Positions 1,416-20,339 of a stretch of 25,210 bases of DNA are shown here, in pieces. The position numbers were made by a program, and so were the translations under genes. The number at the start of each line of letters is the position of its first letter. Position 1 is the first letter of the stretch. Origin of the DNA: Cochliopodium minus (taxonomy: Eukaryota > Discosea > Himatismenida > Cochliopodiidae). The stretch spans positions 147,625 to 172,834 of the forward strand of contig JAMYWO010000028.1 of the NCBI GenBank assembly GCA_024220525.1, read 5' to 3'. The notes below the pieces were generated by a model. It did no database searches. It was not told the origin of the DNA and saw only the letters and a list, made by a program, of their open reading frames with translations.

Positions 1416-2948
1416 ATGAAAAAAAAATTTTTAAAGGTAACCAGTCATCTCAGTCTTTTTAAAACCATTTGATCATAAAAGTATTCAAATATTTTATTTA
1501 TAGAAGAAAAAGGCTCAGAAAAAGAAAAGGGTAAATTTTGAAGGAAAATTGTTGGTGAAGAATTCTCCAGAAGAGATAAAGTTTGAGGAGAAACATGAAA
1601 AACAATTCTCTCTTCCAAAATCTATATTGATAGATATAATCACCTATCTTTCCTATAATGAAATTCTAAATGCAATGCTCGCTTGCAAAGAATTATATTT
1701 CCTTTCACAAACTGAAGAATTCTTCAGAAAATTGTATATCAAGAATACCCTTCCTTATAATGAAAATTTCAAGAATGATCTTCCAACATGGAAAGAGAAA
1801 TTCTTCACTTTGATAGATGCATGGGATAGGAATTTCTCAAATCTAAAGAAATTGTATATCTCAAAGAAAAAGATTGAATATATAGGTGATGTATTTCTCT
1901 ATCAAGGTTTACAAGGATTAGAAACAGCAATAACAAAAAAGAAATTCATTATTGGAAAATACAATTATCTATTTGAGGTAAATATAAAAAAATTAAAAAA
2001 CAAGGGTACAAAAAAAAAATACTTAAATATGCAAAATAAATTTTAATTATCTATTATAAAAAGATACAATTAAAACCATTTTATATGAAAAAGTTGTTAG
2101 TAAAAATGATAACTAGAACATTATTTATCAATAAAATGATATCTTATGTTGAGTGATGCAAATCAATAATCTATTTTTCATTGATGAAACCAGTTTCCCT
2201 TTTAAAATTTCTATTTAAATTTAAATGTTTAGTTTTATCTGAAAGGTGGAGCATTTAATTTGGTTGGTGCGGGAATAATTTATCATGACGAGTAAAAAAA
2301 TATAATTGAATTTTTGTTTTTCACAAAAACCAAATTTTGTTTAGAACACCAAAGAATAACAATGTTTGGGTAATTCAAAATTTTTCAACAAAAAAACAGT
2401 TTTATTTTGAATTGAAAAAAAGTTACATGATGGAAAGCTTGGAATAGGATTGTAAAAAAAAATTGTTTAAATTGATTATTAAAGAATCAAAAAAAAAATG
2501 TGATTTTGAAATGAATCAATTTATTTGAATAAAAAAAACTTTTTAAATATTAAAATAAAAGTCGATGATATTTTAAATTATGATCATTTTTTTAAAAAAT
2601 AAAATTTAATCAAAATTAACTGATTTTAAAAAAAACATTCAGATCATATTTTAAGAATATTTAGAACTTTATTTTTATAATTTATTTAATAATAGTTCGG
2701 GAAGTTTGTTATTCGATAAAAAATGTGGAGAAGAGATTCGAAGAGTTAAATTATTACTCACCAAAGAAACTGAGCTTTATCATCTCGGTACAAATGGCAG
2801 CATAATGACTGGTGAACCCAAAAAAGGCATGTGGGCGAGTTTTTATGTTATTCTTTATCAAAAAGGTGAATTTGTTGAGTTTGTGAGAATGGTTGAACTT
2901 GACAACGTTGCAGATAAAATCACTTTTCAATATTTAAATGATTTGTGA
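1416..2948 (+). CDS. F-box family protein, array copy 2, with polybasic 5' exon
   Basis: Complete six-exon gene: 1416-1436, 1504-1977, 2233-2291, 2345-2369, 2423-2451, 2696-2948, giving 286 residues in one frame. The ATG at 1416 opens a 7-codon exon (MKKKFLK) that splices in phase to an exon starting KKKAQKKKR, so the N-terminus is strongly basic and could be a nuclear localisation signal. The F-box follows (LPKSILIDIITYL, then CKELYFLS and EEFFRKLY). Without this 5' exon there is no in-frame ATG before the F-box, which is why I chose this start. The start lies only 38 bp after the stop of copy 1. The likely role is substrate adaptor for a Skp1-Cullin-F-box ligase. The C-terminal region (DGAGIIYH-type motif, then SFYVILYQ and ITFQYLNDL) is unrecognised. 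Confidence 0.8.
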
Positions 2949-2978
2949 TTTTGAAAAACAATTAATAAATAAAAAAAA

Positions 2979-4240
2979 ATGAATAATAATTTTGCTTCAC
3001 AAAAAAAAAAATATAAAAAGGTCAGCAACCCTTTTTAAAAATAATATGTTGTTTAAAGTATTCAATCAAAAAAATTTGATATTTTTAGAAGAAAAAAAAA
3101 ATTGGAAACTTTGAAGGAAAATTGTTTGGGAAGAATTCTCCAGAAGAGATAAAGATTGAGGAGAAACATGAAAAACAATTCCCTCTTCCAAAACCTTTAT
3201 TGATCGAAATAATCACTCATCTTCCTGTGGATGAAATTCTGAATGCTATTCTCGCTTGTAAAGAATTATATTTTCTTTCAAAAACAGAAGAATTCTTCCG
3301 AAAATTGTATATCAAGAATTCCTTTCCCTATCATCCAACTCCATTGAATGATCATCCAACATGGAAAGAGAAATTCTTCACTTTGTTGGAAGTATGGGAT
3401 CCCAATTTCTATAATAAAAAAATATTGATGATGAACAAGAGTATGATTGTTTATATCGGCGTGCAAGGATTATCAACAGCAATAACAAAAAAGAAATTTA
3501 TCGTCGGAGAACAAAATTATCTTTTTGAGGTAAATTAAAAAACAAACAAAAAAAAAAATTACAAGTGTACTCAAAAAAAATCAAAAAACAAATTGAATTT
3601 AATTTTAATTGGATTGTTTTTTAAAAAAAAAGTTCAATCTGAATGTAGGTGAAATTGGGTTGGTCGGTGCAGGGATAATTTATTGTGAGTAAAACATTGA
3701 AGTTTTAAATTTTTTCTTAATTTTTTTAAAATGAAGGCAATCCAATCCTAATGACAAGTGGGTTAAAAAAATTTCATAGAAATTCAAGATTTTTTGTTTA
3801 ATTCTTTCATAAAAAAGCTGCACCGTAGAGAACTAAATAATGGATTGTAAATATCTATTGATTTTTCAATTAAATTTTTTTTTCCAAAAAATAAATCCTA
3901 TTAAAAAAAAAATTATAAAATTTAAATTGCTTTTATTCATTCAATAAGCTAAAAATTTTTTTTTATTTATCATAAATTTAGTAGCAGAGACGAAATGTAC
4001 ATTAAAAATAAGAAATCCTTTCAAATTGTAAAGTTGTTAGTCACCAAACAACCCAAAATATATATTTTCACCTGTATTAATAATCTTATGAAAGAAGGTT
4101 ATGGTGAACTTAAAAAGGGTGCAATGGCCAGTTTTTACGTTACTCTTTACCAAAAATATGAGTCTGCTGATTTAATGAGGATTGAAGAAATATATAATGT
4201 ACCCGATGAAGTAACTCCTCAATATTTAAATGATTTATAA
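2979..4240 (+). CDS. F-box family protein, array copy 3, with polybasic 5' exon
   Basis: Six exons: 2979-3020, 3089-3529, 3633-3688, 3737-3761, 3818-3846, 3982-4240, giving 283 residues. The 5' exon (MNNNFASQKKKYKK) joins in phase to KKKKIGNFEGKLFGK, again a lysine-rich leader before the F-box (LPKPLLIEIITHLPVDEILN, CKELYFLSKTEEFF). It starts 30 bp after the stop of copy 2. It is more diverged than copies 1-2 in the small exons: exon 2 is 56 bp rather than 59, exon 4 reads LHRRELNNG where others have LHDGxLGxG, and exon 3 ends at a GTTAAA donor. It remains fully open, so it is probably functional. The role as an SCF adaptor is inferred from the F-box only. Confidence 0.76.
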
Positions 4241-4544
4241 GAATATCCTAAGGAGAAAATAAAATTTTTTTGGCTATTGGAACTTTTCTTTATTCGTTTC
4301 AAAAAAAAAAAAAAAAAAAAAAATCTTCAACATTTCAGGAAATAAAGATGCAAAAACAATAAGACACCATATCAACGCCGCTTGTGATAAAGCACTAACT
4401 AGTGATTTAAAAAGCACACTGAATTAGGATAGTGGAGATTATTACCTCGATAACAATTTACCAACCTTTACTTTAACATTGGTATTCAAAAAAATAATTA
4501 AATATTATTATTAATATTGAATATAAAAATAAAAATAAATAAAA
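4241..4544. other. Intergenic stretch with a coding-like relic
   Basis: This gap between copies 3 and 4 holds a long poly-A run (about 4301-4323). After it, from about 4339 to 4510, comes a patch with codon-like composition and lower AT than its surroundings, on the + strand. In one frame it reads like protein (for example KDAKTIRHHINAACDKALT and DYYLDNNLPTFTLTLVF) but is interrupted. It follows a TTTCAG that could be an old splice acceptor. It does not resemble the F-box family and I do not recognise it. It is best called an unidentified gene relic captured in the array. Confidence 0.4.
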
Positions 4545-5646
4545 ATGGGAAACTCAAAAGGAATAATGAATGATAATCGATTTGAAATGAAGAAGGAGAA
4601 ACATGGAGAGCAATTTAAATTAATAAGGATTGAGGAGAAATATGAAAGACAATTTCCTCTTCCAAAACCTTTATTGATTGATATAATAACCTATCTTCCT
4701 TATCATGAAATTCTTAATTCAATGCTCACTTGCAAAGAATTATATTTTCTTTCAAAAACAGAAGAATTCTTCAGAAAATTGTATATCAGGAATTCCTTTC
4801 CCTATCATCCAACTCCATTGAATGATCTTCCAACATGGAAGGAGAAATTCTTCACTTTGATGGAAGTATGGGATCACAATTTCTCCAACAAAGATATTTT
4901 GAAAATCTCAAAGAAAAAGATTGAGTATGTAGGTGTTCAAGGATTATCAACAGCAAGAACTAAAAAGAAATTCATTGTTGGAGAACAAAATTATCTCTTT
5001 GAGGTAAAATAAAAAACAAACAAAAAAAAATTGTAACTCAAATTCTTTCTAAAAATATTTGTGATTAGTTCAATTTGAAAAGTGGAAATTATCGCTTGGA
5101 TAGTGCAGGAATAATTTATGAAGAGTAAATATTTGAACATTTTTTAAAAAAATAATCTTCAAATTTTTATAAAAAGAACTGAAAAGAAAGACAAATGGGT
5201 AACTGATTCAACACTTTTTTTTTAAAAAAAAAAATTTTTGTTCATGTTCTTTTAAATAAGTTACATGGTGGAATACTTGGATGTGGTTTGTAAAAAAAAA
5301 ATTTTTCGTCATAATTATAAATAAAAACATTGAAATTATTTGTAAACAATATTACAAATAAACAATTTGTTAATTTTTTTTTAAAATTAGTTGGGGATCC
5401 TTCTCTTTAAATAAAAATAAAAAAGATATCAGAAAAGTCAAAATATTGCTCACCAAAAAATGTAACCTTTATATACTTGGTCCAAGAAATCGTATCCTTA
5501 ACTCTTCAGGTCAACCCACAAAAGACAGAATGGCTAGGTTTTATGTCATTCTTTATCAAAATGGCGAAACTGCTGAAATAACAAGATTTATTGAAATTGA
5601 TAATGTACCTGATAAGATAACTACTCAATATTTAAAAAATTTATAA
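4545..5646 (+). CDS. F-box family protein, array copy 4, MGNSKG N-terminus
   Basis: Five exons: 4545-5003, 5069-5124, 5177-5198, 5261-5289, 5391-5646, giving 273 residues. The protein begins MGNSKGI, which fits the N-myristoylation pattern (Gly2, uncharged residue 3, small residue 6). A membrane-anchored adaptor is therefore possible; this is a motif match only. The F-box follows after about 40 residues (LPKPLLIDIITYLPYHEILN, CKELYFLSKTEEFFRKLY). The small exons read FNLKSGNYRLDSAGIIYEE, TEKKDKW and LHGGILGCGF, and the last exon begins WGSFSLNKNK and ends ITTQYLKNL. All phases agree with the other copies. The C-terminal module has no function I can name. Confidence 0.8.
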
Positions 5647-5703
5647 GAATATAAAGAAAAAAATAAATTTTTTGTGATTGGAACTTTTGTTTTTAAAAAA
5701 AAA

Positions 5704-7047
5704 AATAAAAAAAAAAAAAATGGGAAACTCATAAAGAAAAATGATTGATAATCGATTTGAAATGAAGAAGGAGAAATATGGAGAGCCATTTAAAATAAAG
5801 ATAAAGGAAAAATATGAAAAACAATTTCCTCTTCCAAAACCTTTATTGATTGATATAATAACCTATCTTCCTTATCATGAAATTCTGAATGCAATGCTCA
5901 CTTGTAAAGAATTATATTTTCTTTCAAACAGAAGAATTCTTCAGAAAATTGTATATCAAGAATTCCTTTCCCAATCATCCAACTCCATTGAATGATTTTC
6001 CAACATGGAAAGAAATTCTTCATTTTGATAGATGTATGGGATCCCAATTTCTCAAATTTAGCGAATTTAAAAATCTCTAAAAATATAGGGATCTCCAAAA
6101 ATATTACAACAATTCAAATTTTGTTAGTAAATTTTATCCGCTAACAAAGTTGTAATATTTGGACATGTCTACTAAAAATAGGATCGAATACATAGGTGTT
6201 GAAAAACTAGCTACAGCAATAACAAAAAAGAAATTTATTGTTGGAGAAGGAAATTATCTTTTTGAAGTAAAATAAAAAAATAAAAAAAAAAAGTCCGTCC
6301 TTTTAAAAATAAATTTAAAAACTCAAATTCTTTCTAAAAAAAAATTTGTGATTATTAGTTCAATTTGAAAGCTGGTTCACGTGTCTTGAATGGTGCAGGA
6401 ATAATTTACCACGATAGGTGATAATGTTCTTTATTTCCTTAAAATAAATAACACATTATTTAGTTTTTCATTTTGTTCACATGTAAATGGTATTTGGGTA
6501 AAAATAAAATTTTTTTCTTTTGATTTCTTTTTAATATTTTTTCTCCCATTCAAAGTTGCACCTTGGCGAACTTGGGACGGGATTGCAAGTTTTTTTTTTC
6601 TTTAAAATAATTGTCATTATTTTAAAAATAAAATAAATTTAAAATAAAGGAAAAAAAGAAATAAAACTAAAAATCTAAAAAATTTAAAAAAATAATTTAA
6701 ATAGTTATACCACCAAAAAACATAAATTATAAAAATTAAAACAAATTTATTTTAAACTTTCAAAACAATTTTTTTTAATTTAGCTGGGGAAAGAACTTAT
6801 ACAACTCAGATTATAAAGAGAATATGACCCAGAAGGTAAAGATCTTGTTGACTAAAGAACCAAAAATTATAGCTTACACCTCTATTGATTCTAAAACTTA
6901 TCATCCTTATTCTCAACCCGACATATCCAAATCTGTGAGTTTTTACATCACTCTTTACCAAAATGGCGAAACTGCTGATTTTTGAGGATTGTTAAATTAG
7001 ATAATGTCCCTGATTACATCACTCCTAGATATCTAAATGATTTATGA
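5704..7047 (+). pseudogene. F-box family pseudogene, array copy 5
   Basis: All five exons are recognisable (exon 1 about 5741-6266, then 6359-6417, 6464-6497, 6556-6584, 6784-7047), but the gene is broken. The ancestral ATGGGAAACTCA start (5720) now runs into TAA. Exon 1 carries two 2-bp losses relative to copy 4 (near 5930 and 6014) and an 82-bp inverted-repeat insertion (6088-6169). The last exon has a 1-bp loss near 6985 (GATTTTTGAGG where others have GATTATTTGAGG). The exon-4 donor is GCAAGT instead of GTAAAA, and the exon-2 donor is GTGATA. The closest relative by leader and F-box is copy 4. It is probably not translated into a working protein. Confidence 0.85.
6088..6169 (+). mobile_element. 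MITE-like inverted-repeat element, TA target site
   Basis: An 82-bp insert within exon 1 of the copy 5 pseudogene. The left end GGGATCTCCAAAAATATT and the reverse complement of the right end, GACATGTCCAAATATTAC, form terminal inverted repeats of roughly 20 bp. A second arm (TTTGTTAG / CTAACAAA) makes nearly the whole element a hairpin. It is flanked by TA on both sides (6086-6087 and 6170-6171), as for Tc1/mariner-type insertions. It encodes nothing and must be non-autonomous. The other copies lack it at this position, which defines the insertion. A related copy lies at 19895-19967 in the opposite orientation. Confidence 0.75.
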
Positions 7048-7539
7048 CATTACTCAATTAAAATTTTTTGAAATGAAAATTTAATTTAATATTTTATTCA
7101 ATAATTTTTTTTTAACAATAAATATGATTGGCAATTTGGATGCGGATTGTAAAAAGATAAAATCTTTATTTTAGAATCAAAAAAAAAAAGCTTCTTTAAA
7201 AATACCCAAAATAAAACTGCTCTAAAAAATTGTTTCAATTTGAAATGATTCATTAATTAAAAAAATAAAATAGAAATTTAAAGGTTTAACTTTTATTTTT
7301 AAAAAAGATGACAAGATTTGATAGATCAAACAAGGAATCTAAGAAAGAATAACAAAAGGTAGAATGGCAAGCTTCTTTGTCATTCTTTACCAAAAAGGAG
7401 AGTTTTTGATACATCAAAAATGATTAAGCCAGATAAATATTAATTATGATTATTCATGGAATTTTGTTTAAAGAATTTCTAATATTTGAATTCATCTAAT
7501 ATTTGAATTCAAATTATTTAAAAATTAATATAAAAAAAA
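7048..7539 (+). pseudogene. Relic of a further F-box array copy (exons 4-5 only)
   Basis: Bases about 7121-7148 resemble exon 4 of the family (ATGATTGGCAATTTGGATG, then CGGATT and a GTAAAA donor). Bases about 7310-7440 contain a decayed terminal exon, in which AAAGGTAGAATGGCAAGC and the following bases correspond to the MASFYVILYQKGE block. No exon 1 is visible, and the downstream QYLxDL end is missing. I read this as the stump of an extra tandem unit between copies 5 and 6. The rest is AT-rich spacer, plus a direct duplication of ATATTTGAATTCA just upstream of copy 6. Confidence 0.6.
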
Positions 7540-8624
7540 ATGGAAAATTATGAAAAACAATTCCCTCTTCCAAAACCTTTATTGATCGAAATAATGACTC
7601 ATCTTCAAATCAATGAAATTCTGAATGCTATTCTCACTTGCAAAGAATTATATTTTCTTTCAAAAACAGAAGAATTCTTCAGAAAATTGTATATCAAGAA
7701 TTCCTTTCCCTATGAAGAAAATCCCAAGAATGATCTTCCAACATGGAAAGAGAAATTTCTCACTTTGATAGAGATATTCGATCCTAATTTCTCCAACAAA
7801 AACAATTTGAAAATTTCAAAAAAGAATCTTCAATATATTGGAACTCAAGGACTATCAACAGCAATAACAAAAAAGAAATTCATTGTTGGAGAACAAAATT
7901 ATCTTTTTGAGGTAAATTCCTATTATAACATATTGAAAACTCATCAAATCCATAATTATGAATCAATTTCCTTTCAATGAGAATCTAATCATCCAATTAT
8001 TATAATGAAAAAGAAAATAAATTTTTAAAAATTTGAAAAAAAAAAAAATGTTAGTTCGATTTAAAAGGAGGACATTTTTGCTTGGATGGGGCAGGATTAA
8101 TTTATCACGACGAGTAAAAAAAGAATTTTTCTCTTAAAAAAAAAAAAAAATATTTTTTACTTTTAAAAACCAAATATGAAAAGAACTCCAAAGAGTAACA
8201 ATATTTGGGTAAATTATTTTGAATGATTTTTGTTTTCATTTTATTTTTTATTCATTTTTTATTTGAAAAGTTACATGATGGATCACTCGGATGTGGATTG
8301 TAAAAAAACTTTCTCGATAAGAAAAAATAAAAATAGTTAGAAAAAAAAAAAATTTATTTTAGTTGGGGAACTGATTTGTTTAATTCTAACAATAAAGCCA
8401 ATATTCAAAAAATCAAAATACTATTAACGAAAGAACCCAAAATGTTTGCTTTGATGTGTGTAGACAATCGCATTGTTAACTCTTCTGGTCGCCCCAAAAA
8501 AGACAAAACTGCAAGTTTCTATGTCACTCTCTACCAAGCTGGTGAGTCTATTGATTATTTGAGGATAGTTCATGTAGATAATGTACCTCTTGAAATCAAT
8601 GCTCAATATTTGGCTGATTTATAA
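7540..8624 (+). CDS. F-box family protein, array copy 6
   Basis: Five exons: 7540-7911, 8055-8113, 8184-8208, 8271-8299, 8363-8624, giving 248 residues. It starts directly at MENYEKQFPLPKPLLIEI, without the basic or MGNSKG leader. The F-box spans about residues 6-55, with the WKEKF block near residue 70. The small exons give FDLKGGHFCLDGAGLIYHDE, TPKSNNIW and LHDGSLGCGF, then WGTDLFNSNNKANIQ and a conserved tail (LLTKEPKMF, SFYVTLYQAGE, DYLRIV, INAQYLADL). The 3' two-thirds of exon 1 is identical to copies 7-9, while the last exon differs clearly from theirs, suggesting partial gene conversion. Probable SCF ligase adaptor; substrate unknown. Confidence 0.82.
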
Positions 8625-8974
8625 TTCATTTTGTACTTTTTTTTCTATTAAAATGAAAAAAAAAAGGATAAAACAAAATTTTAATTTTAGTGAAAAAATT
8701 TGAAGAAATTTTTTGAAAAACAGAATATAAAAAAGTAAAAAATTTTTGAGTAATCAAAAAAAAAAAGTTTAAAACTTTTTGATGAAGAAAACCTAATGGT
8801 TGGATAATATTGTCAACTAAAAGATGCAATTTAAATGATCTTAAAAGTTCAGACAAAACTTTTCCAAAAAGAAAGGAAAAGTATTTTTACTTCACTTTAC
8901 AAAAGGAAAGATGAAAGAAAAAATATTAAAAAAAAAAAAAACTGGGAAACTTGGGGAAGTATTTTTCAGGAGAG
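8625..8974. repeat. Spacer module repeated upstream of copies 7 and 8
   Basis: The segment 8700-8910 recurs, with small differences, at about 10575-10790. Shared blocks include TTTGAAAAACAGAATA, AAGTTTAAAACTTTTTGATG, GAAGAAAACC, GGTTGGATA and CAAAAGGAAAGAT. It therefore belongs to the duplicated unit rather than to random AT spacer. It may carry the promoter of copies 7 and 8, but I see no defined element. No gene is supported on either strand. Confidence 0.55.
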
Positions 8975-10143
8975 ATGAGGATTGAGGAAAAATATGAGAA
9001 ACAATTTTCTCTTCCAAAACCTTTGTTGATCGATATAATAACTGATCTTCCTTATCATGAAATTCTGAATGCTATTCTCTCTTGCAAAGAATTATATTTC
9101 CTTTCAAAAACAGAAGAATTCTTCAGAAAATTGTATATCAGGAATTCCTTTCCCTATGAAGAAAATCCCAAGAATGATCTTCCAACATGGAAAGAGAAAT
9201 TTCTCACTTTGATAGAGATATTCGATCCTAATTTCTCCAACAAAAACAATTTGAAAATTTCAAAAAAGAATCTTCAATATATTGGAACTCAAGGACTATC
9301 AACAGCAATAACAAAAAAGAAATTCATTGTTGGAGAACAAAATTATCTTTTTGAGGTAAAAAAAATAACCATAAACTCATTAATAGTGTATAAAATTGCT
9401 TGATAATTTAAATATCAAATAAAAAGAGGATATCAAATGAAAAACATAATATTCTTAAAGATAATTATCTTTTATACTAATCTTTTTTTCCAAAAATAAA
9501 TTAAAAGTTCAATTTGAAAGGAGGTGAGTATTGTTTGGATGGTGCTGGAATAATTTATCAAGACAGGTAAGATCAAAGTGTATTTTTGTTGTTTATTATT
9601 TTTTTCATCCAAATATTTAGTTTTCAAACTGTATCAAATGGAACTTGGGTAATAAAGTTTTTTTTAATGAAATTTCTAAATTCTTTTTTAATCCTTTCAA
9701 AAGTTACACCATGGAGATCTTGGGACAGGATTGTAAACTCTTATAAAAATAAAATATAAAATATAAAAATATAAAAATAAATAAAAATATAAATATAAAT
9801 AAATAAAATATAAAAATAAAAAATAAAAAAATGAAGATAAACTGTTGTTTTACTTACCTGATAAAATAATCTTTAATATAGTTATGGAGGCAGTATTTTC
9901 TTAAAAAATCAAGTGATGGAGAATCAAAAGGTCAAGGTATTGCTTACCAAAGAGCCCAAAATTTTCGCTTTCAGATGTATCGATAATAAGATTTTTCATC
10001 CTCATATTGAACCCAAAATAGGGAAAATGGCAAGTTTTTACATCACTCTTTATCAAAATGGTGAGACTGCTGATTATTTAAGGATTGTTAAAATTGATAA
10101 TGTTCCCAACGATATCACTCCTCAATATTTAAAGGATTTGTGA
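8975..10143 (+). CDS. F-box family protein, array copy 7
   Basis: Five exons: 8975-9355, 9508-9566, 9621-9648, 9704-9732, 9882-10143, giving 252 residues if translation starts at the ATG at 8975 (MRIEEKYEKQF). Upstream, the family's ATGGGAAAC start reads CTGGGAAAC (8942), so the MGNSKG-type leader appears lost by a start-codon change. The F-box is intact (LPKPLLIDIITDLPYHEILN, CKELYFLSKTEEFF). The small exons read FNLKGGEYCLDGAGIIYQD, SFQTVSNGTW and LHHGDLGTGF; the tail has FYGGSIFLKN, LLTKEPKIFAF, SFYITLYQNGETADYL and ITPQYLKDL. Likely an SCF adaptor. The start is less certain than the rest of the model. Confidence 0.8.
9733..9881 (+). repeat. (ATAAA)n-type simple repeat in intron 4 of copy 7
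   Basis: Intron 4 is dominated by irregular ATAAA/AAATATA repeats (about 9743-9830) before a normal acceptor region. The same low-complexity block occurs at the same place in copies 8 (about 11720-11795) and 9 (about 13352-13440) at different lengths, so it expanded or contracted after duplication. Confidence 0.7.
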
Positions 10144-10865
10144 CCAAAAATAATTTGAGATATAATTCAAAATTTTTATTTATTTTTTTGTTGAATATTA
10201 TTTCAAATAAATTTCTTTTAAAAAATCGAAATTTTTTTGATTTTTCAACAAGTTTTTCATGAAGAAAAAAGTTAATATAGCTAAAAGAATTATCAAATGG
10301 TGCATGGAAGACTTTTAACTCAGATAGATCGAGTATTTCAAAAGAAACACCTTTTGATCCAGAAACATTTCTGATGAAATGTCTGGATTTATGAACTCAA
10401 TCACTTAAATTTATTTAATAATTAATAACAAGTTTAACTCAAAAAGGGAGATTTTTGAGAGAATAGGACAAGTTCGTCTTCTTCAAGTTTGAAAATGAGT
10501 GCAACATTTTTGAATTGAAGAACAATCTGTTGACTCATTTCCAATTTTTTAAAAATGGATAAAATAAAATTTTATTCAAAAAACATGAAGAAATTTTGAA
10601 AAACAGAATAAAAAAACGTAAAAATTTTTGAGTAATTAAAAAAAAAAGTTTAAAACTTTTTGATGAAGAAAACCAAAAGGTTGGATACTAAAAGACTCAA
10701 TTTTAACTCTTTAAAATTTTCATTTAAATCACCTTTCCATAAAGAATGGAAAAGTATACAATTTTTAATTCACTTCGCAAAAGGAAAGATTGGAGACTTT
10801 ACAAAAATTTAAATGAAAAAAAAATAATATTTAATTTGAAACCATTTAAAAAAAATATAAAAAAA
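10144..10865. other. Spacer with conserved antisense coding-like segment
   Basis: Bases about 10240-10520 are conserved at about 12175-12485, between copies 8 and 9. On the - strand both contain protein-like stretches, such as QQIVLQFKNVALIFKLEEDE (about 10460-10535) and VSFEILDLSELKVFHAPFDN (about 10290-10350), in different frames and not assembled into an open gene. I do not recognise it. It may be a decayed gene duplicated with the array unit. Bases 10575-10790 repeat the module upstream of copy 7. An in-frame upstream ATG at 10746 would extend copy 8 by 40 residues, but the added sequence has no match in other copies. Confidence 0.45.
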
Positions 10866-12086
10866 ATGGAGTATTACGAAAAACAATTTTCTCTTCCAAA
10901 ACCTTTATTGATCGAAATAATGACTCATCTTCCTTATCATGATATTCTGAATGCAATGCTCACTTGCAAAGAATTATATTTTCTTTCAAAAACAGAGAAA
11001 TTCTTCAGAAAATTGTATATCAGGAATTCCTTTCCCTATGAAGAAAATCCCAAGAATGATCTTCCAACATGGAAAGAGAAATTTCTCACTTTGATAGAGA
11101 TATTCGATCCTAATTTCTCCAACAAAAACAATTTGAAAATTTCAAAAAAGAATCTTCAATATATTGGAACTCAAGGACTATCAACAGCAATAACAAAAAA
11201 GAAATTCATTGTTGGAGAACAAAATTATCTTTTTGAGGTAAAAAAAAAAAACCATAAACTCATTAATAGTGTATAAAATATTTTTTCTTTTTTTTCTCTT
11301 GAAAAAATTGTAATTCTTTAAAAAACTATGGGTTTGTTTTGCAACTTTTAACTGCTTTCATCTCTCATGATAGGAAAAATTGCTGAATATTTGAATATAA
11401 AAAGAGGATATCATAAAAAAACAAAATATTCTTAAGATAATTATCTTTGATACTAATCTTTTTTTCCAAAAATAAAATAAAAGTTCAATTTGAAAGGAGG
11501 TGCATATTGTTTGGACGGTGCTGGAATAATTTATCACGACAGGTAAAATCAAAGTGTATTTTTGTTGTTTATTGTATTTTTTTTATCCAAATATTTAGTT
11601 TTCAAAGTGAACCAAATGGAACTTGGGTAAAAAACTTTTTTTTTTATGAAATTTCTTTCTAAATTCTTTTTTATTCCTTTCAAAAGTTGCACGATGGAGA
11701 TCTTGGGACAGGATTGTAAAATCTTTTAAAAATAAAATTAAAATAAAAATAAAATAAAAATAAAAAATAAAATAAAATTTTTTATATTTTATTTACTTAC
11801 CTGATAAAATAATTTTTATTACAGTAATGGAGGCAGTATTTTCTTAAAAAATCAAGTGGTAGAGAATCAAAAGATCAAAGTGTTGCTTACCAAAGAGCCC
11901 AAAATTTTCGCTTTCAGATGTATCGATAATCAGATTTTTCATCCTTTTATTGAACCTAAAATAGGGAAAATGGCAAGCTTTTACATCACTCTTTATCAAA
12001 ATGGTGAGACTGCTGATTATTTAAGGATTGTTAAAATTGATGATGTTCCCAACGATATCACTCCTCAATATTTAAAGGATTTGTGA
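10866..12086 (+). CDS. F-box family protein, array copy 8
   Basis: Five exons: 10866-11237, 11484-11542, 11599-11626, 11687-11715, 11825-12086, giving 249 residues. The start MEYYEKQFSLPKPLLIEI aligns with copies 6 and 9, which is why I prefer it to the ATG at 10746. The F-box is intact. The small exons read FNLKGGAYCLDGAGIIYHD, SFQSEPNGTW and LHDGDLGTGF, followed by NGGSIFLKNQVVENQ and the conserved tail (LLTKEPKIFAF, SFYITLYQNGETADYL, ITPQYLKDL). Exons 2-5 are almost the same as copy 9, so these two are the youngest pair along with copy 7. Likely an SCF-type ligase adaptor by its F-box. Confidence 0.82.
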
Positions 12087-12588
12087 CCAAAAATAATTTG
12101 AAATATAATTCAATATTTTTTCATTGAATATTATTTTAAATAAATTTCTTTTAAAATATTTGAAATTTTTGATAGAAATTCTTCATGAAGAAAAGTCTCT
12201 AAGATAAGATCAAAAATATAGCTAAAAGAATTCTCAACCAGTGTGCATGAAAGACTTTTAACTCAGCTTGATCGAGTATTTCAAAAGAAACACCCTTTGA
12301 TCCAGAAACATTTCTGTTGAAATGTCAGGATTTATGAACTCAATCACTTTAATTTTTTTAATATTTAAAAACAAGTTAAACTCAAAAAAGGGGAAATTTT
12401 TTGAGACAATAGGACAAGTTCGTCTTCTTCAAGTTTGAAAATGAGTGCAACATTTTTGAATTGAAGAACAATCTGTTGACTTGATTGGCAAATCATTTCT
12501 TATGGGACAAAAAGTTTTAAGTCAAATCTTTGTGAAAATCTTATTTTATTCCTTTTTCACTTATTTGATTTTTAAAATATAAAAAAAA
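12087..12588. other. Spacer with second copy of the antisense coding-like segment
   Basis: This repeats the 10240-10520 segment (about 12175-12485), including the - strand protein-like stretch LQFKNVALIFKLEEDELVL. Here the - strand frame extends a little further (EMICQSSQQIVLQF). It is still not an open gene. Conservation of both copies is explained at least partly by recent duplication of the unit, so it is not proof of function. Confidence 0.45.
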
Positions 12589-13691
12589 ATGGAGAATTAT
12601 GAAAAACAATTACCTCTTCCAAAACCTTTATTGATCGAAATAATGACTCATCTTCCAATCAATGAAATTCTGAATACTATGCTCACTTGCAAAGAATTAT
12701 ATTTTCTTTCAAAAACAGAAGAATTCTTCAGAAAATTGTATATCAAGAATTCCTTTCCCTATGAAGAAAATCCCAAGAATGATCTTCCAACATGGAAAGA
12801 GAAATTTCTCACTTTGATAGAGATATTCGATCCTAATTTCTCCAACAAAAACAATTTGAAAATTTCAAAAAAGAATCTTCAATATATTGGAACTCAAGGA
12901 CTATCAACAGCAATAACAAAAAAGAAATTCATTGTTGGAGAACAAAATTATCTTTTTGAGGTAAAAAAAATAACCATAAACTCATTAATAGTGTATAAAA
13001 TTGCTTGATAATTTAAATATCAAATAAAAAGAGGATATCAAATGAAAAACATAATATTCTTAAAACCTTTAAAAGATAATTATCTTTGATACTAATCTTT
13101 TTTTCCAAAAATAAAATAAAAGTTCAATTTGAAAGGAGGTGCATATTGTTTGGACGGTGCTGGAATAATTTATCACGACAGGTAAAATCAAAGTGTATTT
13201 TTGTTGTTTATTGTATTTTTTTTATCCAAATATTTAGTTTTCAAAGTGAACCAAATGGAACTTGGGTAATAAAGTTTTTTTTAATGAAATTCTTTTTTAA
13301 TCCTTTCAAAAGTTGCACCATGGAGATCTTGGGACAGGATTGTAAACTCTTTTAAAAATAAAATATAAAAATATAAAAATATAAATATAAATAAATAAAT
13401 ATAAAAATAAAAATAAAAAATAAAAAATAAAAAATAAAAAAATGAAGATAAACTGTTGTTTTACTCACCTGATAAATCATTTTTAATATAGTTATGGAGG
13501 TAGTATTTTCTTACAAAATCAAGTGATGGAGAATCAAAAGGTCAAGGTATTGCTTACCAAATTGCCCAAAATTTTCGCTTTCAGATGTATCGATAATAAG
13601 ATTTTTCATCCTTATATTGAACCTAAAATAGGGAAAATGGCAAGCTTTTACATCACTCTTTATCAAAATGGTGAGACTGCTGATTATTTAA
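12589..13691 (+). CDS. F-box family protein, array copy 9, cut off at an N
   Basis: Exons 12589-12960, 13123-13181, 13238-13265, 13313-13341 and 13492->13691. The protein starts MENYEKQLPLPKPLLIEI and follows copy 8 closely through the F-box and small exons (SFQSEPNGTW, LHHGDLGTGF). The last exon runs normally to GETADYL and then breaks at the N at 13692, after which the sequence is unrelated low-complexity DNA. The missing tail would be about 20 residues. Because the break coincides exactly with the N, I consider it an assembly junction rather than a real truncation. Probable SCF adaptor, as for its neighbours. Confidence 0.78.
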
Positions 13692-14471: not shown

Positions 14472-16650
<2,179 letters not shown>

Positions 16651-18003: not shown

Positions 18004-18088
18004 TTTATTTTACTTTTTGACTATTATTCAATTGGATTTGAAGTTGTGATTGAAAAGATTTCTCAATCAAAAAAAAATATAAAAAATA

Positions 18089-18894
18089 ATGGATTCAAAA
18101 TTGGTTAAAATTAGCATAGGTGGTTCTAAATTTACCACCACGAAAGATACTATCTCATCATCTGGATTTCTATCTGCAATGGTAGAAAATCACGAATCAA
18201 ATAAAATGAAATCAATAATGGATGGAGAATATTTCTTCATAGATAGAAATCCCAAAGTAATGATCCAATCAAAAATCTATATTATTTTCTTTCAATCAAT
18301 TGTAAATCTTAAATATATAATTTTTTATAAACAGTATTTCGATTTAGTTTTGGATTATTTGAGGAATAAAGAAATGCCTGAAATTGAAAACTCACAAATA
18401 CATAAATTGTTGAGAGAATTTGAATTTTATTGTATTGATTTGCCACCAAATTTGAAATATTTCAAAGAGATTCTCAATCTGAAGAAAAATGATATTTACA
18501 CAAAGTTTGTTAATTTGTTTATCGAAAAAGGCTTTCCTTTTATATTTGAAAAACTAAAAACTAATTGTGAAAATGGAAAAGATACAATGGTATTGAGTAC
18601 TTCATTATTGACAGACAAAGGTTTACTTTTCAAAGGAAATTTTTTTGCTCTTTTCATTATTAATTTTTTTAAAAGTTCTTTATCCCATACCTCCTGAAAT
18701 ATATAGCTTTCCTAAACAACTTTGCAAGGCAATCCTGAGTTTTTTTTTTGTTTATTTAATTTTTTTTTTTTAAAAAAAAGGACAAACCAAAACTTCAAAT
18801 AATGAATTTTATTAGCGAAACAATACAAAAACTGGGATTTAACTCAAAATTGGAAGTGGCAAATTCTTCAGTGAGAATAACAATACAAATATAA
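18089..18894 (+). CDS. BTB/T1-domain (KCTD-like) protein
   Basis: Exons 18089-18256, 18335-18620, 18676-18749, 18781-18894, giving 213 residues. The N-terminal 100 residues form a potassium-channel-tetramerisation type BTB: VKISIGGSKFTTTKDTI, then FFIDRNPK joined across intron 1 to YFDLVLDYLRNKEMP. Such proteins oligomerise and often act as Cullin-3 ubiquitin-ligase adaptors. The C-terminal half (VLYPIPPEIYSFPKQLCKAI, DKPKLQIMNFISETIQKLGF) is unrecognised. Intron 1 is 78 bp with no stop in frame, so retention would still encode protein. The exon 2 and 3 donors are GTTTAC and GTTTAT, less standard than GTAAA; a GC donor at 18729 is an alternative for exon 3. It ends 34 bp from the convergent gene. 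Confidence 0.8.
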
Positions 18895-18928: not shown

Positions 18929-20339
18929 TTAAATCGGAAACATTTTGTGCTTTTTTGAGTGTTGAGAATTTTCGAAATTAAGTGTGAAACAAGAATAGCA
19001 CAAATCAAAATCCTTGCAAATAGTGCACTTAAATCTATTTCCATCACTTAATTGTAAAGCATCACAACCATCACAACAAATGTTTTCATAAGAATTTCTA
19101 AACAAAGAAAACATAATAAAATATGTTTTTTTTTTTAAATACTCTCTTTTTTTTAGTTTACATTTTTGTCAGTTTATGGCTTGTTGAATGTTCTTTGAAT
19201 GATTTTTTTTCTACACATTTGTTACAAAATGAAACATCTTCACAACCTTCTTCTGCACACATATGAAGGTTTCCTGAAACGAGTTTATCCTCACAAGAAT
19301 CACAAAAGTATTGTGTTATTGATTTTTTTCTTTAAAAAATATATTTTTATGAAACTATTAAAAAAAAGAAAAATTATGAGATGAAAAAATTTACTGTAAA
19401 TAGGGATCCTTTTTCAAAAGGTTTTGATGTATTGAAAAGTATGATTCAAAGTCTGAAATTTTTTTATCTTCAGAAAAATAAATTAAAAAAATTATAAAAA
19501 TTGAAAAAATTACTTAAAAATAAATTGATTAGACTTTCTTTTGTATGATCCTTCTTTCCTTGAAAAGATATTTCGTTCAAAAATCTGACGACATAAGAGT
19601 AACAGTTGTTTTCCAAAGAAGTGTATTTGTTCTTTTTTTCTCTTTTCACTTCTTTTTTGTTGAAGGATTCTAACATCTCGTCAAATTTCTGTTGATCTTT
19701 TGTAGTGAGGTCATTTAAAGGTATTGCCAAACAATCTTTTTTCCACTTTTCCTTGCAACATCCTCTTTCATCAAAGTTATAAACCAATCCTTTTGAATTG
19801 GAGATTCCACAATGCAAAAATGAATCCTACAATTATAAAGAAAAAAAAAGTTATAAACATAATTCAATTTTTATTTTTATTTTATTTATTTTTAGACATG
19901 TCCAAAATTTACAACTTTGTTATTAATTTTGACAATTTTTGAACTGTTGTAAAGTTTTGAACATCTCTAATTTAATTTATTTATTTTTACCTTTCTGTAA
20001 TTATAAAAACTTCCGATTGTAACTTTCACCATCAAATCTTTTTATTAAAAAAAAATATAAATGGTTTCTTTTGATTTGTTTATCTTTTTTACGAATGGGT
20101 GATTTTATTGAATTGGTTAATTCGCTTTCATATTTGAGCAAATAAAGATCATTTGATGATATCACTTTCAATTTGCAGAATACACATTCTGATATTTCAT
20201 TTAATGAAAAGATTTTATGAGAACAATGGTCCAATCTATATATTGGATTTAATTCTCCTTGTGGTATTGATTTTTGTTCATTATTATAAGATTCCATAGA
20301 TAGCATTAAAATTTTTTGTAATTCCTCATCTTCATCCAT
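18929..20339 (-). CDS. UIM-like + MKRN2OS-like (DUF4796) + two ZZ zinc fingers
   Basis: Six exons (- strand): 20093-20339, 19991-20037, 19514-19826, 19395-19452, 19162-19329, 18929-19097. They join in phase to 333 residues. Residues 1-18 (MDEDEELQKILMLSMES) resemble a ubiquitin-interacting motif, though the usual Ala is Ile. Residues about 30-200 match the MKRN2-opposite-strand family from memory: LDHCSHKIFS..CVFC near the start, TIGSFYNYRKDSFLHCGIS, NSKGLVYNFDERGC and NNCYSYVVRFLN. Residues about 220-333 hold two ZZ fingers: CDSCEDK...CAEEGCEDVSFCNKC with paired His, then CDGCDAL...FKCTICKDFDLCYSCF with H..H. ZZ domains bind protein tails and occur in ubiquitin and autophagy adaptors. A ubiquitin-linked role is inferred. 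Intron 2 carries a MITE. Confidence 0.8.
19895..19967 (-). mobile_element. MITE-like element in intron 2 of the UIM/ZZ gene
   Basis: A 73-bp element beginning GACATGTCCAAAATTTACAA and ending GTTGTAAAGTTTTGAACATC plus TC; the ends are inverted repeats of about 20 bp. It is flanked by TA (19893-19894 and 19968-19969). The end GACATGTCCAAA and the sub-terminal TTACAACTTTGTTA are shared with the element at 6088-6169 read in the opposite direction. Two related copies with the same TA flanks support a real family. Confidence 0.7.

Follow-up and report, generated by a model that had tools for sequence, protein, structure and literature searches.

A DUF4796 (MKRN2OS) domain with predicted catalytic residues joined to ZZ fingers and a UIM-like helix in a predicted protein of Cochliopodium minus

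Does the MKRN2OS domain, when it occurs in one protein with a ubiquitin-interacting-like helix and zinc fingers of the ZZ type, take part in the recognition of client proteins or does it act on them? The question is raised by a gene on the minus strand of a 25,210-nucleotide stretch of Cochliopodium minus DNA, the whole of which is called the window below. An earlier note on this DNA had described the product as a motif like the ubiquitin-interacting motif (UIM), an MKRN2OS-like domain and two ZZ fingers, in that order. The order was borne out for the DUF4796 domain (E 3e-20) and for the second finger, ZZ2 (E 1.1e-6), and more weakly for ZZ1, by its similarity to the ZZ of HERC2 (E 0.0069), and for the UIM, which stayed sub-threshold. 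The features of the gene are the following, in window coordinates.

18929..20339, minus strand: complete gene, ATG through stop codon, with six exons that encode 333 residues, read through in-phase GT..AG joins
20093..20339, minus strand: exon 1, with the UIM-like helix, the DUF4796_N-like stretch and the start of DUF4796_C, from joins and family matches
20292..20336, minus strand: UIM-like motif, residues 2-16, with Ile10 at the place of the usual Ala; UIM_2 and UIM matches sub-threshold
20193..20243, minus strand: DUF4796_N-like stretch, residues 33-49; 13.2 bits, cut-off 27
19524..20120, minus strand: DUF4796_C domain, residues 74-199, over exons 1-3 with two introns within; Pfam E 3e-20
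19991..20037, minus strand: exon 2; raises the DUF4796_C score by 8.9 bits, in collinear order on the profile
19514..19826, minus strand: exon 3, core of DUF4796_C; 63.5 bits alone
19812..19814, minus strand: codon of His103, predicted catalytic His; masking loses 6.0 bits, second of 19
19602..19604, minus strand: codon of Cys173, predicted catalytic Cys; masking loses 7.2 bits, the largest of 19
19395..19452, minus strand: exon 4, linker; in-phase join
19330..19394, minus strand: intron 4, which ends in an AAG acceptor and has a possible TAG acceptor 25 nt before it, from splice-site inspection
19162..19329, minus strand: exon 5, with ZZ1; in-phase join
19176..19304, minus strand: ZZ1, residues 231-273, diverged; HERC2 ZZ by phmmer, E 0.0069
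18929..19097, minus strand: exon 6, with ZZ2 and the stop; in-phase join
18944..19081, minus strand: ZZ2, residues 284-329; PF00569 E 2.1e-7, and the ZZ of HERC2, KCMF1, BIG and p62 by phmmer

The DUF4796 domain and its conserved histidine and cysteine

A significant DUF4796 match, the absence of which had been named beforehand as refuting the proposal, is present: in a Pfam search with the whole protein, DUF4796_C (PF16044) was found with 72.9 bits against a cut-off of 28. Exon 3 by itself scores 63.5 bits; addition of exon 2 brings this to 72.4 bits and that of the end of exon 1 to 77.1 bits, and this collinear rise indicates that the three exons share one domain. The DUF4796_C profile has one place in the 44.65 Mb of the genome of the organism itself, which is the window gene, and none was found in 14 control genomes. 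By sequence, no solved structure is related to the DUF4796 region (best E 0.62). A search of NCBIfam returned 0 families at E ≤ 10, and two further Pfam matches of the whole protein, ZZ_ADA2 (19.8 bits, cut-off 27.5) and C1_2 (14.8 bits, cut-off 26), are sub-threshold.

Ahead of the domain, residues 31-57 matched DUF4796_N (PF22795) as their sole family (13.2 bits), while a slightly different 31-residue piece of the same stretch gave no match and the window gene was not listed when the own genome was searched with the DUF4796_N profile at E ≤ 10. His38, Cys39 and His41 inside this stretch and Cys52 and Cys55 following it may, judging from the letters, make up a zinc knuckle. The RTE1-like profile (PF05608) gave 21.2 bits with the whole protein, 29.1 bits with the domain and 30.4 bits with exon 3 alone, its cut-off being 29.4; at E ≤ 0.001 this profile had 0 matches in the own genome and likewise 0 in the controls. 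Membership of the C97/PPPDE family was ruled out, as PF05903 (PPPDE) did not match the window protein at E ≤ 10. PF05903 has four places in the own genome (on contigs C16 and C42), and a PPPDE exon of the own genome had 0 matches among solved structures.

The earlier statement that the family has no known function is outdated, since a papain-like placement is in print. In the accessible part of a classification of 2023, DUF4796 (PF16044) is counted among the papain-like cysteine proteinases, for which a Cys-His-Ser triad might hold, and human MKROS is placed in cluster II, of the NlpC/P60-like type, with DESI1, DESI2, TMEM222 and LRAT (PMC10318531). The same part gives C97/DeSI, C92 and LRAT as permuted members, names C97 members deubiquitinases/desumolyases, has LRAT and C92 act on lipids, and treats RTE1 as papain-like too, RTE1 and TMEM222 being membrane proteins (PMC10318531). 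MKROS is further described there as an E3 ligase that takes part in the control of NF-kappaB (PMC10318531), a label that we suspect to be the consequence of a mix-up with MKRN2. Elsewhere the function of MKRN2OS is described as unknown; in C. elegans the DUF spans all 178 residues of GVD-1, and a gvd-1 mutant has a phenotype in larval and germ-cell growth, according to the accessible part of that report (PMC10320718). Neither a UIM/DUF4796/ZZ architecture nor an enzyme assay was found in the accessible parts of the family literature (PMC10318531, PMC10320718, PMC9992864, PMC5380684).

Single residues of the domain were masked by changing them to X and rescoring a 136-residue piece, which unmasked gives 77.1 bits with DUF4796_C and 29.1 bits with RTE1; the 19 positions were of our own choosing. 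In the DUF4796_C profile the largest losses were those of C173 (7.2 bits) and H103 (6.0 bits), followed by G120 (5.5), Y174 (5.0) and Y166 (4.9), in a procedure that favours Cys and His from the outset because conserved rare residues score high. Intermediate losses were obtained for F180 (4.0), G105 and N172 (3.9 each), Y114 (2.5) and N182 (2.1). The candidates for a third catalytic residue, N115, D117 and S175, lost 1.9, 1.7 and 1.0 bits; C130 lost 1.4, N171 0.7, C104 0.6, H192 0.5 and P134 0.2 bits, and W126 gained 0.4. The small losses of C104, C130 and H192 show that being a Cys or a His is insufficient for a large one. With the RTE1 profile C173 again came first (4.8 bits), before N172 (3.8), Y166 (3.5), N182 (3.1), G105 (2.9) and H103 (2.8), which makes His103 only the sixth of the 19. 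As His103 holds this sixth place and G120, Y174 and Y166 are close behind the pair in DUF4796_C, conservation alone is no proof of a catalytic pair.

His103 stands 70 residues before Cys173, and both are strongly conserved in the family profile. The order of His and then Cys is the one found in the permuted members of the papain-like group. Taken with the published classification, the near-invariance of the two residues in the profile points to a catalytic domain.

The ZZ fingers and the UIM-like N-terminus

ZZ2 on its own scores 31.1 bits with PF00569, the cut-off of which is 21.4 (E 2.1e-7); within the whole protein the match covers residues 284-319 (E 1.1e-6). Its best solved relatives by phmmer are the ZZ domains of HERC2, KCMF1, BIG and p62. 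ZZ1, with a spacing of C-x4-C instead of C-x2-C, is a diverged ZZ, and when used alone it had no match to PF00569 at E ≤ 10; two PF00569 stretches were reported when both fingers were used in tandem as the query. For the ZZ of HERC2, the accessible part of a structural report describes a pocket of D2709, D2728 and D2730 in which the N-terminus of histone H3 or of an Nt-Arg peptide is held, and gives SUMO1 as a further protein bound by its N-terminus; binding is abolished by the loss of D2709 or of D2730, the latter having been tested as an Ala mutant (PMC9001736). According to our own mapping, which was made from the alignment and the spacing, D287, D307 and D309 of ZZ2 are at the places of these three residues. 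In ZZ1, D232 and D253 are kept and Ser255 is at the place of D2730. With three pocket aspartates in ZZ2 and two in ZZ1, ZZ2 is likely to be a reader of N-termini, and such a role is doubtful for ZZ1.

When the spliced protein was compared with the own genome, 11 places were obtained at E ≤ 1, five of which, on contig C28, are the window gene itself and six are ZZ places elsewhere. In two collections of non-eukaryote sequence, searched within the reach of close relatives, residues 1-222 gave 12 pattern-matching stretches and 0 relatives (viral_contigs), and residues 70-205 gave 48 such stretches and 0 relatives (genome_contigs). Other genes with ZZ domains were seen in the own genome. At L006:2-3327 on contig C43, an MT-A70 methyltransferase domain extends over two frames (profile positions 1-86 and 94-172), and in the second frame it is followed by four ZZ stretches, apparently a fusion of an m6A-writer-type domain with ZZ. 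Two PB1-ZZ-UBA genes of the p62/NBR1-like kind lie on minus strands at L007:889-2076 (C390) and L012:940-2190 (C456); the second has two ZZ domains and a UBA_NBR1_C match below the cut-off.

In the UIM consensus an Ala stands at the position of Ile10 of the window protein, a departure that the earlier note had correctly pointed out. The first 24 residues, used alone, matched two Pfam families, both of them UIMs: UIM_2 (PF23625) with 13.6 bits (E 0.08) and UIM (PF02809) with 11.8 bits (E 0.23). No UIM match was obtained in Pfam with the whole protein. When the own genome was searched with the UIM profile at E ≤ 1, seven places were obtained, of which one was over the cut-off and none was the window gene. 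Ten shuffles of the 24-residue peptide gave no match to a UIM family, but a family unrelated to the UIMs turned up with one of them (E 0.023), so that an E value near 0.1 is to be read as weak evidence. A true UIM was not taken as established, both matches being under the cut-off of 21, with Ile10 in place of the Ala and no match in the whole protein; the N-terminal helix is called UIM-like here.

Candidate activities and the joining of the exons

The reading that we prefer, with a probability of roughly 0.4, is that the window protein is an isopeptidase for ubiquitin or ubiquitin-like proteins (Ubl), that is, a thiol hydrolase of the DUF4796 branch with a permuted NlpC/P60-like papain fold, which would use His103 and Cys173 and be steered by its ZZ fingers. 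ZZ2, perhaps together with ZZ1, would grip the free N-terminus of a client, such as an N-degron or the first residues of a ubiquitin-like tag, the UIM-like helix at the N-terminus would hold ubiquitin weakly, and the DUF4796 domain in the middle would cut the bond by means of Cys173 and His103, as the DeSI enzymes of the fold group do. The analysis itself shows the domain matches, the conservation of the residues and, by alignment, the acidic pocket of the ZZ; the papain-like placement of the family was taken from print, and catalysis, the kind of substrate and the cooperation of the parts are what we infer. On account of the published classification and the near-invariant His103 and Cys173, we prefer a thiol hydrolase with recognition domains to direct it over a pure receptor. 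The idea of a tie to the recognition of ubiquitin or N-termini stands as far as DUF4796 and ZZ2 are concerned and has weak support from ZZ1 and the UIM-like helix, albeit not with DUF4796 as the recognition part, since this domain looks catalytic.

An active thiol hydrolase might also have another kind of substrate, as an acyl-thioesterase, acyltransferase or amidase similar to LRAT or C92, with ZZ fingers that only dock the enzyme onto a partner. This is rather unlikely in our estimate, although LRAT and C92, which are permuted as well, have lipids as substrates and the RTE1-like similarity leads to membrane proteins, RTE1 and TMEM222, as given in the accessible part of the classification (PMC10318531). 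The closest solved matches of the ZZ fingers come from ubiquitin ligases and p62, and the only families matched by the N-terminus, though weakly, are UIMs. The neighbourhood of a ZZ of the N-terminus-reading type and a UIM-like helix makes ubiquitin-type tags the likelier substrate when compared with lipids.

Similarly improbable is a non-enzymatic receptor with an inactive or structural papain-like domain, which would link clients that are ubiquitylated or carry an N-degron to some other machinery, along the lines of the ubiquitin or autophagy-type recognition proposed in the earlier note. ZZ2 resembles the ZZ of p62 and HERC2 and has its acidic pocket intact, and the PB1-ZZ-UBA genes at L007 and L012 indicate that ZZ-based receptors of the p62/NBR1 type exist in this organism. 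However, neither a PB1 nor a UBA domain was found in the window protein with Pfam, and the His and Cys that are predicted to be catalytic are both present and hardly vary in the profile. The conservation of the His/Cys pair places a pure receptor behind the enzymatic reading.

The isopeptidase reading requires that the ZZ exons belong to the same product as the DUF4796 exons. The spliced reading of the window has the six in-phase exons and the 333 residues that had been claimed for it, with five GT..AG introns of 55-164 nt, the GC content of which (0.115-0.159) is well below that of the exons (0.263-0.300). Introns 1 and 4 end in AAG, a choice that is forced because exons 2 and 5 are each closely preceded by a stop in their own frame. 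The spliced product of a nearby cyclophilin gene is a full-length Pro_isomerase match (E 2.1e-47), and as one of the four introns of this gene has an AAG acceptor, such a site can be used in the own genome. The first Met of exon 5 is residue 245, after the first zinc cysteines, and with the stop just upstream in frame the ZZ exons have no start of their own; on these grounds a separate ZZ gene was considered unlikely. By frame logic and predicted splicing, the ZZ exons would be joined to the DUF4796 exons. That the model is partly an artefact, with a DUF4796 product that stops by exon 4 or a splice form without ZZ, and with the ZZ exons in another transcript, would fit the stop codon directly after exon 4 if intron 4 is retained and the TAG acceptor of this intron, which leads to 239 residues without ZZ fingers where the full product requires the rarer AAG, but it is very improbable in view of the start-less exon 5, the composition of intron 4, which is like that of the other introns, and the AAG acceptor of the cyclophilin gene. 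One may speculate that use of the TAG acceptor would allow splicing to turn the targeting off.

Other genes were seen in the window. The plus strand has a tandem F-box cluster of seven successive frames at 1504-13005, five of the seven being over the curated cut-off, and a BTB_2 (KCTD-type) frame at 18083-18694, which is convergent with the DUF4796-ZZ gene and by eye appears to end about 40 bases or less from its stop. On the minus strand at 14971-15894, matches to MCM_OB and MCM mark an MCM exon region, which lies in the only stretch of the window with a clearly raised GC content: 0.412 in 15001-16000, compared to 0.19-0.30 in the other 1-kb steps.

What is fresh in the locus is that an orphan domain, which is here predicted to be an enzyme and retains the key residues, appears to be fused to a ZZ of the type that reads N-degrons. 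Very little is in print on human MKRN2OS. The fusion to a finger reading N-termini and to a helix that possibly binds ubiquitin hints at which substrates of MKRN2OS should be considered first, and if the isopeptidase reading is right, the human protein would move from an orphan fold to a candidate for the ubiquitin pathway. It is a bold extension, and one we hold to be improbable, that DUF4796/MKRN2OS constitutes an unrecognised ubiquitin/Ubl isopeptidase family from protists to vertebrates, with the window protein as a self-contained, N-terminus-directed deconjugase. If it were true, the window protein would read the N-terminus of a client by its ZZ and strip the tag, as a counter-enzyme to the N-degron ligases.

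Comparison with known systems

The C97/PPPDE enzymes DeSI-1 and DeSI-2 belong to the same fold cluster in the accessible part of the classification (PMC10318531). Around the cysteine, the window protein has NCYSYV (Cys173) and the PPPDE exon of the own genome has NCNHFC; the window protein differs from these enzymes in having no PF05903 match at E ≤ 10. To RTE1/TMEM222 (PF05608) it is similar in that exon 3 alone is over the cut-off and that Cys173 is the costliest of the 19 masked positions, whereas the whole protein is under the cut-off; RTE1 and TMEM222 are described as membrane proteins in the same part of the classification (PMC10318531). ZZ2 shares its spacing and three acidic pocket residues with the ZZ of HERC2, KCMF1, BIG and p62, which are found in ubiquitin ligases, partners of ligases or an autophagy receptor and not beside a papain-like domain. 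With the MKRN2OS/DUF4796 family (PF22795 and PF16044; human MKROS and GVD-1 and W10D9.3 of C. elegans), the window protein has DUF4796_C in common, preceded by a weak DUF4796_N match, and its His and Cys are at strongly conserved positions of the profile. Beyond this common core, the window protein has a UIM-like helix and a pair of ZZ fingers.
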